Below, in pieces: positions 5,600-61,227 of a stretch of 64,000 bases of DNA. The position numbers and the translations under genes are program-made. Source of the DNA: Halosimplex litoreum (GTDB taxonomy: Archaea > Halobacteriota > Halobacteria > Halobacteriales > Haloarculaceae); the NCBI RefSeq assembly GCF_016065055.1, contig NZ_CP065856.1, positions 2,045,836-2,109,835 of the forward strand. The letters are read 5' to 3'. Positions within the stretch are counted from its first letter, which is position 1; every line of letters begins with the position of its first letter. The notes beneath the pieces were generated by a model. That model was not told the DNA's origin. It saw only the letters and a list, made by a program, of their open reading frames with translations, and did not search any database.

Positions 5600-7651
5600 G
5601 TGTCACAGCAGGTCGGCGAGGTCGGGACGCTGTTCCTCCACGAGTACGGCGACGACGTGCGGGTCGCCGTCGTCAAGGACGGAGAGCGGCGTCTCCACGC
5701 GATACTGGAACTCAAGGAGACCGACGCCGGGCCGCGACCGGCGCGACTCCGCCTGAAGCAGGGCGCCAGCGAGGAGCCCCGCCCGCCCGACCTGTTCGTC
5801 GAACTCGCCCGCTCGGCCTCGCGCATCCGCATCTCCGAGCAGACCTCGAAGGCGACTCGCCGGCGCCTACAGGAACTGCTCGACGCCTACCAGCTCGAAG
5901 CCAAAGCCGTCCGCACCTGCCGCTACTGCGCCAGCGAGGGGCAGTACTCGCCGGTCACCTCCGAGACGGCCATCGAGGCCGACGGCGAGTACATCTGCCC
6001 CGACTGCGCGAAGGCCGAACTCGACCGCGAACTCGCCTACAAAGGCGAGATCACCGCCGGCGCCCGCGACCGGCTCTACGACCTGCTCACCGAGGTTCAG
6101 GACCTCGAACGCGTCTCGAACCTCCTGAAAGGCGATCTGGACCCCGATCTGACGAAGTTCGACGAGATCTCGGCGACCGTCGACGAGGTCGACCCCGTCC
6201 CGGTCGACTCGCTGGATCTCCACCCCGGTATTCAGGACCACCTCGAAGGGCGCTTCGACACGCTCCTGCCGGTCCAGAGTCTCGCCGTCGAGAACGGCGC
6301 GACCGAGGGCCAGGACCAACTGGTCGTGTCCGCGACGGCGACGGGGAAGACGCTCATCGGCGAGATGGCCGGCCTCGACCGCGTCCTGAACGGCAAGGGC
6401 AAGATGCTCTTTCTCGTGCCGCTGGTCGCGCTCGCCAACCAGAAACACGAGTCCTTCGAGGAGCGCTACGGCGACATGGTCGACGTCTCTCTCAGAGTCG
6501 GCGCCAGCCGCATCAACGACGGCGGCGGCCGCTTCGACCCCGGCGCCGACGTGATCGTCGGGACCTACGAGGGCATCGACCACGCGCTGCGGACCGGCAA
6601 GGACCTGGGCAACATCGGGACGGTCGTCATCGACGAGGTCCACACCCTCGGCGAGGACGAGCGCGGCCACCGCCTCGACGGCCTGATCTCGCGGCTGAAG
6701 TACTACTGCGGCGAGCGCTCGGACAACCGGAGCACGGACGGCACGCAGTGGATCTACCTCTCGGCGACCGTCGGCAACCCCGGCGACCTGGCCGAGCAGC
6801 TGCGCGCCCAGCTCATCGAGTTCGAGGAGCGCCCGGTCCCGATCGAACGCCACGTTACCTTCGCGGACGGCCGCGAGAAGATGCAGATAGAGAACAAGCT
6901 CGTCCGCAGGGCCTTCGACACGAAATCGTCGAAGGGGTATCGCGGCCAGACCATCATCTTCACTAACTCCCGGCGGCGCTGTCACGAGATCTCCCGCAAG
7001 CTGGAGTACGACTCGGCGCCCTACCACGCCGGGCTGGACCACCGCCGCCGGAAGAAGGTCGAGCGGATGTTCGCCGACCAGGATCTGGCCGCGGTCGTGA
7101 CGACCGCCGCACTCGCCGCGGGGGTCGACTTCCCCGCCTCGCAGGTCGTCTTCGACTCGCTGGCGATGGGCATCGAGTGGCTCACCGTCCAGGAGTTCCA
7201 CCAGATGCTCGGCCGCGCGGGGCGGCCGGACTACCACGACAAGGGCACCGTCTACGTCCTCGTCGAGCCCGACGGCAATTACCACAGCAGCCAGGAGATG
7301 AGCGAGGACGAGGTGGCGTTCAAGCTGCTGAAAGGCGAGATGGACCCTGTCATCACCCGCTACGACGAGGGCGCGGCCGTCGAGGAGACGCTCGCCAACG
7401 TCACCGTCGGGGGCAAGGCGGCCAAGCGGCTCAACGACCGGATGATCGGCGAGGTGCCGACAACACACGCCGTCGGCAAGCTGCTGGAGTACGAGTTCAT
7501 CGACGGCCTCTCGCCGACGCCGATGGGCCGGGCGGTCACCTCCCACTTCCTCTCGCCCGACGACGCGTTCCTGCTGCTCGACGGTATCCGCAAGGGGTCG
7601 GATCCCTACGACATCGTCGGGACGATGGAGCTGCGCGACGACGAGCGGTAG
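5600..7651 (+). CDS. Haloarchaeal superfamily 2 helicase, DUF5814-type
   Basis: About 683 residues. The N-terminal 220 residues are a haloarchaeal-specific domain with a four-cysteine zinc site (CRYC...CPDC). The helicase core follows: Walker A in SATATGKT, Walker B/DEAH-like box IDEVHTL, motif III LSATVGN, and the C-terminal RecA-like domain with LAAGVDFPA and QMLGRAGRPDY. It resembles Hel308/Ski2-like enzymes without the long accessory domains. I take GTG 5600 as start because of the TATA spacing. The last 36 codons have a second, diverged copy at 8645-8752, beyond an inserted toxin-antitoxin pair. Confidence 0.9.
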   Translation: MSQQVGEVGTLFLHEYGDDVRVAVVKDGERRLHAILELKETDAGPRPARLRLKQGASEEPRPPDLFVELARSASRIRISEQTSKATRRRLQELLDAYQLEAKAVRTCRYCASEGQYSPVTSETAIEADGEYICPDCAKAELDRELAYKGEITAGARDRLYDLLTEVQDLERVSNLLKGDLDPDLTKFDEISATVDEVDPVPVDSLDLHPGIQDHLEGRFDTLLPVQSLAVENGATEGQDQLVVSATATGKTLIGEMAGLDRVLNGKGKMLFLVPLVALANQKHESFEERYGDMVDVSLRVGASRINDGGGRFDPGADVIVGTYEGIDHALRTGKDLGNIGTVVIDEVHTLGEDERGHRLDGLISRLKYYCGERSDNRSTDGTQWIYLSATVGNPGDLAEQLRAQLIEFEERPVPIERHVTFADGREKMQIENKLVRRAFDTKSSKGYRGQTIIFTNSRRRCHEISRKLEYDSAPYHAGLDHRRRKKVERMFADQDLAAVVTTAALAAGVDFPASQVVFDSLAMGIEWLTVQEFHQMLGRAGRPDYHDKGTVYVLVEPDGNYHSSQEMSEDEVAFKLLKGEMDPVITRYDEGAAVEETLANVTVGGKAAKRLNDRMIGEVPTTHAVGKLLEYEFIDGLSPTPMGRAVTSHFLSPDDAFLLLDGIRKGSDPYDIVGTMELRDDER

Positions 7652-7661
7652 GCGATCGGGA

Positions 7662-8111
7662 TCAGATCGCGTCCACATCGTCGAGGTAGTCGCGGAGCTC
7701 GTGGAGAAACGCCCTGTAGCGACCGAGATCCTGAAGCGCCTCGTACACGATGTCTTGATCGAGCACGTCGCCGTATTCGTGGGCGAGCACGTTTCGAAAC
7801 ATCGCCGCCTGACCCATCTTCGAAGCGGTTTCCGCGGAGAGTACGTCGACGGTCGCGAGTCGCTCCATCACGGCGGCGTTCGAATCCGGAGCCCGACCGT
7901 CGATGTCGCGGAGGAGCATCCGCCCGATGTCGACACACGCCTGGCTCGCCTTCTCGAAACGGCGTTCGACCACGTCTCTGGTCACGGTATCCGACCGATA
8001 GGCATCACGGGTGATGGACTGGCGGGCTGCGAGAATTTCGAGACACTCTTCGACGAACTCTGCCTTCTCGACCATCGTCTCGACGCGGTCAGGACCGTGC
8101 GGGTCCGACAT
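7662..8111 (-). CDS. hepT: HepT-type HEPN toxin RNase (DUF86)
   Basis: A 149-residue all-helical HEPN protein. The catalytic RX4HXY motif is intact: R106, H111 and Y113 in RNVLAHEYGD. In characterised HepT/MntA systems this motif is the RNase active site, and the tyrosine is the residue that the partner MntA modifies with AMP. The gene lies 3 bp after the MNT gene, on the same strand, as in the classic operon. Its 3' end is only 10 bp from the convergent helicase stop codon. A second, decayed copy of its 5' end is at about 9021-9112. Confidence 0.9.
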   Translation of the reverse strand: MSDPHGPDRVETMVEKAEFVEECLEILAARQSITRDAYRSDTVTRDVVERRFEKASQACVDIGRMLLRDIDGRAPDSNAAVMERLATVDVLSAETASKMGQAAMFRNVLAHEYGDVLDQDIVYEALQDLGRYRAFLHELRDYLDDVDAI

Positions 8112-8114
8112 CGG

Positions 8115-8582
8115 TCACCCCGCGCGCTCGACGTGTCGGTCCACCCGTTCGAGCGTCTCGTCGAGCCGGTCGCGGAGCGACTGGTTCGGTTCGCGCCGTT
8201 CCGCGGCGGCTTCGAACTCGTCTCGGAGTGCGTCCGCGCGCTCTGGCGACCCGGACAGGAGAACGCCGTGCGAGAACGCCGCACGACCGACCCGCGGATC
8301 GAGGTCGTCGACGAGCGAGAGGTCGATATCGTTGCGGTCGAGTGCCACGGAGAGGTCGGCGAGCAGCGACAGGAGCGGTTCGCCGGGGTCATCGACGGCT
8401 CCCTCGAAATCGACGGCGATATCGACATCGCTGCTAGCGTCCGCGACGCCGGTGACCTGTGAGCCGAACAGAACCGCCAGACGGATCGGATACTGGTCGA
8501 GCACCGTCCGGATCCGATCGGTGTCGATAGAAACCGCGGTCTCCCGCTCCGATAGATCGGTGGGCGCCTCCCGCTCGCTCAT
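8115..8582 (-). CDS. mntA: MntA-type minimal nucleotidyltransferase antitoxin
   Basis: A 155-residue protein starting at the ATG at 8582 (the longer frame needs a TTG). The nucleotidyltransferase signature is intact: GS at residues 40-41 (VLFGSQVTG) followed by the DxD pair at 52 and 54 (SSDVDIAVD). Proteins of this family transfer AMP groups to the tyrosine of the HepT HXY motif and silence the RNase. The C-terminal helices are arginine-rich. It precedes hepT by 3 bp. Together they form an inserted cassette at the helicase 3' end. Confidence 0.9.
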   Translation of the reverse strand: MSEREAPTDLSERETAVSIDTDRIRTVLDQYPIRLAVLFGSQVTGVADASSDVDIAVDFEGAVDDPGEPLLSLLADLSVALDRNDIDLSLVDDLDPRVGRAAFSHGVLLSGSPERADALRDEFEAAAERREPNQSLRDRLDETLERVDRHVERAG

Positions 8583-8644
8583 CGTGCGTCCGAGTTGGCG
8601 GACGAGCGACAAACCTGTTGCGGTGGCCGCGACCGATCCCGGCG

Positions 8645-8752
8645 TCTCACGAGCTACCGCCCGACCACGCCTTCCTGCTGCTCGACGGCATCCGAAAGGG
8701 CGACGACTCCTACGACATCGTCGGGACGATGGAACTGCGCGACGACGAGTGA
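8645..8752 (+). pseudogene. Displaced duplicate of the helicase 3' end
   Basis: Reading frame SHELPPDHAFLLLDGIR and onward through IVGTMELRDDE and a TGA stop. By direct alignment 30 of 35 residues match the intact helicase C-terminus (7541-7651), and many third-codon positions differ. No helicase sequence lies upstream of it, so it is a fragment without a start. It sits just beyond the HEPN/MNT pair and marks the place where that pair entered or was exchanged. Confidence 0.85.
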
Positions 8753-38791: not shown

Positions 38792-38870
38792 CCACTTTTT
38801 GCTGAGGGGGCTTCCTCGCTCGCTCCGCTCGCTGCGGGAACCCCCGAACGAAAAACTTGGGGAAAAAGCC
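38792..38870 (+). repeat. Dispersed intergenic repeat, copy A
   Basis: About 80 bp containing a T-run, a TCCTCGCTCGCTCCGCTC segment, CTGCGGGAACCCCC, then AAAAAC and GGGGAAAAAGCC. It aligns over its whole length with 60509-60588 in the same orientation and with roughly three quarters of bases shared. Confidence 0.65.
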
Positions 38871-38893
38871 GCTCGCGCCGACGGCGCGAGCGG
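38869..38893. terminator. Hairpin 1 after the thermosome gene
   Basis: An 11-bp perfect stem, CCGCTCGCGCC with GGCGCGAGCGG, and loop GAC. It adjoins the end of repeat copy A. Confidence 0.45.
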
Positions 38894-59096: not shown

Positions 59097-60392
59097 ATGT
59101 CTCAGAACCGCCCTGTCCTCCTCGCGGTCCTGGCGCTGCTCGTCGCGGCACCGGCGACACAGGCGGTCGCCGCGGGGTCGCTCGGAACCGATTCCGCTCC
59201 CCACCCCGAGCGCGCACTCGGGGTCGACGCAGGCCCGGCGACGAGCGACTCGGTCGCCGCCCGACAGAGCGCCTCGATCGACGCGGCCGCCCAGCAGAAC
59301 ACGTCGAACTACCTCGGGATCAACGACGACGCCGTCGAGACCGCCGGCTATCAGGAGGCTGGGTTGAACGTCGGCGGCGCCGTCCAACGAGATGTGGCCG
59401 CCCTTCGGGGCGAGTACGCTTCGCTCACGTTCGAGCAGCGATACGGGAACACCACGGGCACCAGCGCTCGGACGGCGCTGCTTCGCGAGGAGGTCGGTCG
59501 CCTCGGCGAGCGCGTCCAGCAGCTCGAACTCCGGCGTAACCGGCTCCTCGACGACTACAACGCCGGAGAGATCGACGCCGAGGAGTTCCTGCGAGAACTC
59601 GCCGCGATCGACACGACCGCCCGCGCCGTCGACGACCAGTTCACTCGGATCCGCGGCGCGGCCGGGCTCGAACTGTCCTCGGATCTGGACACGAAGATGG
59701 ACAACCTCGACGGCGACCTGCTCTCGCTGCGGGGGCCCGTGCGCGGCCAGGTCGGAGCCGCGATGGCGGGCGAACGCCCGTCCGTTCCGGTCTACGCGGT
59801 CACGTCCCAGACGGGTATCGTCCTCTCCTCTGCCGAGCGGTCGCAGTACCACCGAGAGGCCTATCTCGGGCAGAACCGCGAACAGGTCGGCCCCGACCGG
59901 TTCGTCACCGACGACTCCCCCAACGGCGTCGTGACCGCCGTCAGCCGGACGACGGAACTCTACCCGTGGGTGAGTTCCAACAGCCGTTCCGGGCCGTCCG
60001 TCGAGGGCATCGGGAACACCTCGATCTACTTCGTCGAGCTTCGCCACCCGCACGGCTCGCTCAACACCTACCTCGACGGACGCACGGAGTCGCCGTTCCG
60101 TGAGGTACAGACCAAGTCACTCGAAGACGTCCCCCTCACCGCCACGACGAACTCGAGCCAGGGCGTCGACCTGACGGTCAACCGCACGCACGCGACCGGC
60201 CCGATGCAGATCTCGGTCCGGGACAACCTGACCGGCGACGCGCTCGAGGCGAACGTGACCGTCAACGGCGCCGACGTCGGATCGACCGGCGACGACGGCG
60301 ACCTCTGGACGCTCACCCCGAAACAGGCCGCTCGCATCGAGGTCACGACCAGCGACGACCGCACCGTCCGCGAGCGCTTTTTCGCCAATTAG
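59097..60392 (+). CDS. Secreted or surface haloarchaeal protein
   Basis: 431 residues. A Sec signal peptide (VLLAVLALLVAAPATQAVAA, about 7-26) is followed by an extracellular region with several N-glycosylation sequons (NTS, NTT, NTSI, NSS, NRT). A coiled-coil-like helix lies about 125-190 (LLREEVGRLGERVQQLEL), then two beta-rich stretches, the last resembling an immunoglobulin-like/bacterial Ig fold (MQISVRDNLTGDALEANVTVNGA). No membrane anchor is obvious at the C-terminus. It probably faces the cell surface. It is divergent from the membrane winged-helix gene. Confidence 0.75.
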   Translation: MSQNRPVLLAVLALLVAAPATQAVAAGSLGTDSAPHPERALGVDAGPATSDSVAARQSASIDAAAQQNTSNYLGINDDAVETAGYQEAGLNVGGAVQRDVAALRGEYASLTFEQRYGNTTGTSARTALLREEVGRLGERVQQLELRRNRLLDDYNAGEIDAEEFLRELAAIDTTARAVDDQFTRIRGAAGLELSSDLDTKMDNLDGDLLSLRGPVRGQVGAAMAGERPSVPVYAVTSQTGIVLSSAERSQYHREAYLGQNREQVGPDRFVTDDSPNGVVTAVSRTTELYPWVSSNSRSGPSVEGIGNTSIYFVELRHPHGSLNTYLDGRTESPFREVQTKSLEDVPLTATTNSSQGVDLTVNRTHATGPMQISVRDNLTGDALEANVTVNGADVGSTGDDGDLWTLTPKQAARIEVTTSDDRTVRERFFAN

Positions 60393-60427: not shown

Positions 60428-60504
60428 CGCTTCGCTCGCGAAGCGGTTACTCCGGAACGTCGGCGACGGTCGTGATCGCCACTTTCGGGCTGTAGGAGGG
60501 CCCT
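60428..60504 (-). pseudogene. Duplicate of the methyltransferase 3' end
   Basis: Matches 60591-60667 with three mismatches over 77 bp. On the minus strand it encodes the C-terminus GPSYSPKVAITTVADVPE with its stop codon at 60447-60449, and 19 bp of following hairpin (CGCTTCGC/GCGAAGCG). The rest of the gene is missing, so it is a displaced tail. Confidence 0.85.
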
Positions 60505-60508
60505 GCAT

Positions 60509-60588
60509 CCACCTTTTTCCGCTCGGGTGTCCTCGGTCGCTGCGCTCCCTGCGGGCACCCCTCGCGCAAAAACGTGGGCGAAAAAGCG
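60509..60588 (+). repeat. Dispersed intergenic repeat, copy B
   Basis: Contains CTTTTTCCGCTCGGGTG, CCTCGGTCGCTGCGCTC, CTGCGGGCACCCC and ends AAAAACGTGGGCGAAAAAGC. It aligns with copy A at 38792-38870. It lies between the intact and the duplicate methyltransferase 3' ends. Confidence 0.65.
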
Positions 60589-60609
60589 CTCGCTTCGCTC
60601 GCGAAGCGG

Positions 60610-61227
60610 TTACTCCGGAACGTCAGCGACGGTCGTGATCGCCACTTTCGGGCTGTACGAAGGCCCCATCGTCACGTGACGGAACTCTTCGTAGCCGGCC
60701 TCGCGGAACATGCGATCGGCCTCCTCCTCACCGTAGAACAGCATGAACGCGTCGGCGAGCTTCTGGAAGACGGTGTTGGACGGGTAGTTCGGGCCGACGA
60801 CGAGCACCTGTCCGCCGGGTTTCGCGATACGGCGACACTCCGCCAGGGCGGCGACTGGGTCGGGCCAGTACTCGATCGAGCCCGAGGACCACACCACGTC
60901 GAAGGTGTCGTCTTTGAACGGCAAGCGCTCGGCGTCGCCGCGGTAGAAGCTGACCGGGTCGTACTTGCCGAGTTTCTGCCAGGCCTTCTCCATCTGGTGG
61001 ACGCTCTGGTCCAGGCCGTGGACGTTGTCCGTGCGTTCGAGGATGCCCTCGGTGGCGAAGCCGGTGCCACAGCCCACGTCGAGGACGCGGTCGTCGGGCG
61101 CGATGTCCAAGAGGTCGAGCGCCTCCGTCCGCATCTCCTCGGTCCAGATGAACGGGTTGACCTGGTCGTACACCTTCGAGAGGTACTTGTAAAAGATCCG
61201 GGCACGCGTCTTGTCCTGGACGGCCAT
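60610..61227 (-). CDS. Quinone-type SAM methyltransferase (VTE3/MPBQ-like)
   Basis: 205 residues, class I methyltransferase. The SAM motif VLDVGCGTGFATEG is near residue 47. The beginning IFYKYLSKVYDQVNPFIWTEEMR and the stretches SSGSIEYWPDP and VGPNYPSNTVFQKLADAFMLFYGEEEA closely match the 2-methyl-6-phytyl-benzoquinol methyltransferase family (plant VTE3). In a haloarchaeon the likely substrate is a menaquinone precursor or ring, but this is inferred. Its 3' end has a second copy at 60428-60504. Confidence 0.85.
   Translation of the reverse strand: MAVQDKTRARIFYKYLSKVYDQVNPFIWTEEMRTEALDLLDIAPDDRVLDVGCGTGFATEGILERTDNVHGLDQSVHQMEKAWQKLGKYDPVSFYRGDAERLPFKDDTFDVVWSSGSIEYWPDPVAALAECRRIAKPGGQVLVVGPNYPSNTVFQKLADAFMLFYGEEEADRMFREAGYEEFRHVTMGPSYSPKVAITTVADVPE

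Follow-up and report, generated by a model that had tools for sequence, protein, structure and literature searches.

The stretch of DNA analysed here (the window) comprises 64,000 nucleotides of the single-contig, 4.16-Mb chromosome of the haloarchaeon Halosimplex litoreum, and it contains a methyltransferase gene whose 3' end is present twice. The functional copy is attached to the gene and a stranded copy lies beyond a repeated element, which we named E. The features concerned are listed below in window coordinates.

59097 to 60392, plus strand: convergent neighbour gene, downstream of the stranded tail (open reading frame)
60428 to 60503, minus strand: stranded methyltransferase tail, 76 bp (direct repeat)
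60504 to 60508, minus strand: right junction, where GGTGG is followed by ATG (the target's own three bases) and then by two extra bases, CA (junction tables)
60509 to 60589, minus strand: element E, hairpin core, with TTTTTC on both strands (covariance model R1, 9.1e-17; alignment)
60591 to 60666, minus strand: functional 3' end attached to the gene, made up of 18 codons with the stop and the hairpin after it (96% direct repeat)
60610 to 61227, minus strand: methyltransferase gene, functional copy, with duplicated 3' end (open reading frame; Pfam Methyltransf_11, 2.5e-26)
38792 to 38871, minus strand: second copy of the E family in the window, without flanking repeat (R1, 4.7e-12; best flank alignment score 12)

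The stop codon of the methyltransferase occupies positions 60610-60612 of the minus strand, and the stretches 60428-60503 and 60591-60666 are identical at 73 of 76 positions. The duplication of the last 18 codons, the stop and the hairpin, put forward in a sequence-only reading of this DNA, is therefore real, all three lying within the repeat; the count of three differences in 77 positions needs correction to four, because the 77th pair (60504 T, 60667 C) differs as well, beside the three mismatches in the 76. A chance repeat was ruled out, given an E-value of 2e-28 within the window and the family-wide control with moved flanks described below. The stranded tail finishes in its hairpin, and the sequence past this hairpin leads to the convergent gene. 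The 86 bp between the two tails match positions 38792-38869 at 78% and give 26 BLAST matches genome-wide (self included), in agreement with the earlier description of this segment as nearly all a dispersed repeat that also occurs at 38.8 kb.

Element E and its flanking repeats

Judged by its sequence, E is a short hairpin element without coding capacity, found in haloarchaea and dispersed in many copies. The core of about 80 bp reads CTTTTTC(A/G)CCCAYGTTTTT, then a stem, then AAAAAGRTGG; the stem holds a conserved internal loop (CCCGCAG facing GAGGA), and its outer part, where CCAY pairs with RTGG, shows covariation (CCAT with ATGG, CCAC with GTGG). Two further hairpins, often found upstream of the core, extend the element up to about 180 bp, and some copies reach about 560 bp. 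In or beside the left part of this long form (L101, L102 and L109), tandem repeats of about 57 bp were observed. A covariance model of the core (R1), built from 18 copies, gave 93 raw matches in the genome, many of them the opposite-strand mirror of one hairpin; once mirrors and the weakest matches had been removed and two partial copies found by BLAST had been added, 58 copies were retained, the core at the methyltransferase locus corresponding to genome positions 2106344-2106424. Several of the BLAST matches occur in the genome as pairs about 100-200 bp apart. In Rfam, nothing in the window reached the gathering score except a tRNA, the long form of E giving sub-threshold matches only, and membership of E in an Rfam family was rejected on that score. 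Likenesses of the first hairpin to domain V of group II introns, and of the core to attC sites, found no support in the analysis and were set aside.

Comparison of the genome with itself revealed flanking direct repeats at many other E copies. For each of the 58 copies, 330 bases upstream were then aligned to 250 bases downstream, with a score cut-off of at least 26. A flanking direct repeat of 28-246 bp was found at 17 copies (13 loci, unrelated genes), and in all 17 the far repeat copy begins 0-6 nt past the RTGG end of E; the other 41 copies were without such a repeat. In a separate comparison of E copies, another three attain this score, the far repeat copy beginning later, more than 8 nt past the element end. 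When either flank was shifted by 500 bases, none of 57 copies gave a repeat (one of the 58 had too little sequence), and among cross pairs of E loci 40 of 3282 reached the cut-off. The genes at the 13 loci are ileS, a thiolase, a Rieske protein, a SufS-like aminotransferase, the methyltransferase, an Elp3-like gene, pheT, polC, a DinG-like helicase, purM, a dapD-like gene, nuoI (Fe-S subunit), and one gene without Pfam match; Pfam domains were found in 9 of the 10 genes scanned, and the names ileS, thiolase, polC, SufS, Elp3, nuoI and DinG are our own reading of sequence or domain, not database names.

At all 13 loci E is oriented in the direction of the gene's transcription, and at 11 of them the stop codon lies inside the repeat. 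This orientation was also seen in a sample of 126 E copies, which is non-random, 58 coming from this genome and many others having been fetched as orthologs of duplicated loci: a same-sense open frame ends upstream of E in all 40 repeat-flanked copies of the sample, and none of these 40 was seen at a gene's 5' end or in reversed orientation. The sense orientation suggests a coupling to transcription or termination.

The left end of the duplication is variable, while its right end is precise. At the right joint, RTGG is followed by three target bases (those preceding the duplicated stretch), then by one or two extra bases, the first of them usually C or T, after which the target resumes with a purine; thus, GGTCG^ACA becomes GGTGG-TCG-C-ACG. 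By hand count, the exact three target bases stand beside RTGG in 17 of 28 distinct sites, the chance being 1/64 at each, and are absent in 11.

Compilation of the 126 copies revealed two classes. Copies with a repeat (n = 40) end mostly in GGTGG (32, with 5 ending in GATGG), whereas those without (n = 86) end mostly in GATGG (59, with 15 ending in GGTGG); furthermore, 29 of the 86 lie 0-5 nt from the stop of a convergent gene, as against 1 of the 40. Since the class without repeat often adjoins convergent stops, E can apparently also occupy a gene end with no duplication, and long-range duplications around this class were looked for with none found. Copies of the convergent kind (L201-L230) were observed just past the convergent gene's stop, at the same place in several species, with quite different stems. 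Examination of such copies in four relatives, where the elements are mostly at the same place and differ in their stems, did not reveal their mode of arrival. The TTTTTC motif occurs on both strands of E, each towards a gene end, and in Haloferax volcanii the T5C motif stopped 95% of transcripts in a reporter (PMC7237163); E is thus probably a bidirectional transcription terminator, a predicted role through which selection could partly account for its orientation bias.

Model R1 was also run on two sets of genomes. Of the 20 in the close group, which counts this one, 17 carry E; of 120 sampled across the phylum, 12 do, all of them in the same order. A pattern search for the repeat-associated core returned at least 80 loci, all listed titles being haloarchaeal. 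Among the matches listed, 6 of which were too near the locus end and were left out, a flanking repeat starting 0-7 bases past the element end was present in 13 of 75 usable copies, including ones from Halapricum, Halomicrococcus and Halobacterium. In the cross-pair control, equal score and start were reached by 8 of 1410 pairs, which are taken to be orthologous loci of related species. The literature searched, mostly outside subscription journals, yielded no account of E and none of duplicated gene tails in haloarchaea.

Occupied and empty sites in related species

For each of the 13 genes, the orthologous 3' end was taken from four to six relatives, the same-genus relatives compared being G003, G004, G005 and G007, and 58 of the 60 ortholog stretches were usable (L158 is cut by a contig end and L174 has a 10-base slip). 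All contrasts between occupied and empty sites are between species, none within one species. A second tail was present in 19 of 22 orthologous sites with E and in 0 of 36 without E (counted by hand; Fisher, 1.6e-12). The three sites with a single tail despite E are L140 and L176, both copies of the convergent type, and L151, which retains just the first bases of a second tail.

These empty sites bear on the possibility that an ordinary tandem duplication of the tail, together with a pre-existing terminator E, was followed by loss of the second E. Units of this kind do duplicate, as the tail-E-tail-E-tail arrays at sufS, 1072740, elp3 and dapD indicate. However, n elements at a repeat-flanked locus go with n+1 tails, E and the second tail are both missing from empty sites, and the right junction is fixed, with its target bases and pyrimidine; we therefore consider this explanation improbable.

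At the methyltransferase, E and two tails with the same junction (GGTGG-ATGCA-GG) are found in this genome and in G002, G004 and G006; G003 and G005 lack E and have one tail each, while G007 has a single tail and a broken E, a relic. The 86-bp repeat is the DNA that was placed at the gene end, as had been proposed. Because four species have the same junction, the insertion predates the species. Within a genome the two tails are 89-98% alike, versus 79-89% between genomes, and on account of this excess they are seen to evolve together, which would most simply be ascribed to gene conversion. The earlier inference of a recent event from the high identity does not hold, in view of the junction common to four species, the relic in a fifth and the joint evolution of the tails. 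Likeness of tails within genomes would also be expected if repeats gathered at gene ends as terminators and the tail copies were kept by selection on a regulatory role of the second tail; yet the second tails of purM and of dapD in G007 are decayed, and the fixed right junction and the empty sites would be left unexplained, making such selection a very improbable cause. At nuoI, sufS and the thiolase, the right joints differ between species, which means that some genes received E more than once.

Polarity is readable at two genes. The stranded copy of pheT has the same ending as the empty species G007 (CTACGAAACGACTGA), whereas the functional copy ends CTACGG-TAG, with a new stop at the junction, and the left border precedes the original stop codon. 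In nuoI, what follows the stranded tail corresponds in sequence to the empty G007 site. At both loci, therefore, the ancestral tail is the stranded one, and the tail on the gene is a copy: the gene body has been joined to a copied tail and E, with the original left outside. The C-terminus of ileS adjoining E differs from that of its relatives, and protein C-termini appear to be sometimes rewritten at E (pheT, ileS).

The fixed right end, the variable left end, the sense orientation and the gene-end specificity could together be accounted for by retro-insertion, in which a nick in the gene would prime reverse transcription of an E RNA, followed by a jump to the 3' end of the gene's mRNA and joining through homology. 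The mRNA end would then set the left border, and the nick the right one. Against this, the left border of pheT, lying before the original stop, is no plausible mRNA end, and a search for RVT_1 reverse transcriptases, positive in 3 of 14 control genomes, gave no match in this genome or in any of the 20 covered. Given this absence from the 20 genomes, the otherwise well-fitting LINE-like route was set aside as most improbable.

Duplicated tails with gene cargo

The other displaced gene tail claimed for the window, that of a helicase, is also a true duplication (7554-7645 and 8658-8749, 88%). Between these tails (window 7554-8749) lie HepT-like and nucleotidyltransferase genes, on the opposite strand to the helicase, and no E copy was found at this locus in the R1 covariance search. 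The functional tail is nearest to G003 (96%) and the displaced tail to G006 (96%); since the two are nearest to different relatives, recombination with foreign DNA, and not the E process, is suggested here, the foreign DNA having perhaps been joined through homology on one side only. The idea that one process produced both displaced tails accordingly found no support, the helicase tails resembling different alleles and enclosing a gene pair with no E.

Homology-facilitated illegitimate recombination, in which DNA of a related strain (a tail with E, or with foreign genes) is joined by homology on the gene side and by an illegitimate joint on the other, might also be invoked for E itself. It fits the helicase, with tails of different allelic affinity around the HepT-like and nucleotidyltransferase pair, as well as two more gene tails that flank gene cargo elsewhere in the genome, and it accounts for the sense orientation. 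The joint of E, however, is always at its own right end, and the two methyltransferase tails within a genome are sisters, so that this origin seems rather unlikely for E.

A direct-repeat scan for gene tails covered 332,255 bases of the genome, centred on E. In L111 (genome 378610-379761), the tail of an epimerase-like gene is repeated (88%, 103 bp) around one gene weakly like nucleotidyltransferases and one small gene. In L112 (genome 2323869-2324991), the repeated tail of a membrane protein gene (81%, 90 bp) encloses an antisense gene whose lamin-tail-like domain scores below the Pfam cut-off. L114 (genome 304276-305500) shows several direct repeats of 50-71 bp, at a spacing of 132-1141 bp and without E, and further direct repeats lie near 1.700, 3.001 and 3.320 Mb.

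A proposed mode of insertion at gene ends

The proposal of a process that inserts DNA at gene ends while the tail is rebuilt stood for E (17/58 own copies; 19/22 versus 0/36 orthologous sites; 13/75 pattern matches) and fell for the helicase. We see about an even chance that a subfamily of E inserts at gene ends by a DNA-only route which duplicates the gene tail, with later homogenisation or loss of the tails. This subfamily, mostly ending in AAAAAGGTGG, would enter a gene at its final codons or immediately after them, oriented with transcription. The target would be duplicated from within the coding sequence, starting 28 to about 245 bp upstream, as far as a left border near the stop, and owing to this duplication the gene would keep a working 3' end joined to E, with the original tail on the far side. 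The right end would be fixed by E (RTGG, three target bases, usually one extra pyrimidine, then a purine) and the left end would vary near the gene's stop. The event itself might involve staggered nicks that are then filled in, or a polymerase that switches template away from the gene and back again; subsequently, gene conversion may keep the two tails alike, and recombination between them could excise E cleanly. No transposase or other enzyme linked to E was found. Y1_Tnp occurs in 12 of 20 relatives and in none of the E-rich G005, G009 and G015, and a link of E to an IS200-type Y1 transposase seems doubtful, as Y1 counts do not track E counts.

Several known systems share features with E. 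REP/BIME palindromes go with RAYT transposases, and E resembles them as an extragenic hairpin repeat with variable stems and conserved motifs; no partner transposase was found here, however, and we know of no long target duplication of gene tails by REP/BIME. Integrative elements are known that repair a tRNA or protein gene at its 3' end, and E is similar in that the gene tail is rebuilt at one end and the original displaced to the other, but no integrase or fixed attachment core was seen for E, which measures 80-180 bp and lies at 13 different genes in a single genome. Non-LTR retroelements have a fixed 3' end, a variable 5' end and variable target duplications; E likewise has one fixed end, one variable end and a variable duplication length, yet differs from them, and from group II retroelements, in having no reverse transcriptase (RVT_1 in 0/20 genomes). 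The duplication in MITEs is short and of fixed size, unlike that of E (28-246 bp).

Closer to the host, PATE and SMR of Haloquadratum walsbyi are short non-coding repeats with palindromes or inverted ends and many copies, mobilised in trans or through unknown means, and are reported to cause no target duplications (PMC3119063). E is like PATE in its palindromic hairpin (the core being one long hairpin) and its lack of coding capacity, and unlike PATE and SMR in its flanking duplications of 28-246 bp (17/58 own copies), its gene-end position and its single orientation. E also resembles the T5C intergenic terminators of Haloferax volcanii in carrying TTTTTC near stops, here on both strands; T5C is a sequence motif, whereas E is a dispersed hairpin element (PMC7237163). 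It is possible, if somewhat doubtful, that E represents a mode of insertion not described before: DNA-only, transcription-coupled and directed at gene 3' ends, in which the gene's tail would be copied to the near side and the gene left intact, with a joint of RTGG, three target bases and a pyrimidine, and with C-termini sometimes rewritten.

For genome annotation, stranded tails should not be taken for genes, and gene ends adjoining E may be rewritten. If the proposed mode of insertion is true, DNA, whether selfish or useful, can enter compact genomes at important genes with the genes surviving, and insertion of E would be a source of new protein C-termini. The natural empty and occupied sites within one genus offer material for working out the mechanism. 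Finally, if E is a portable two-way terminator, mobile repeats would be linked to transcript boundaries in haloarchaea.
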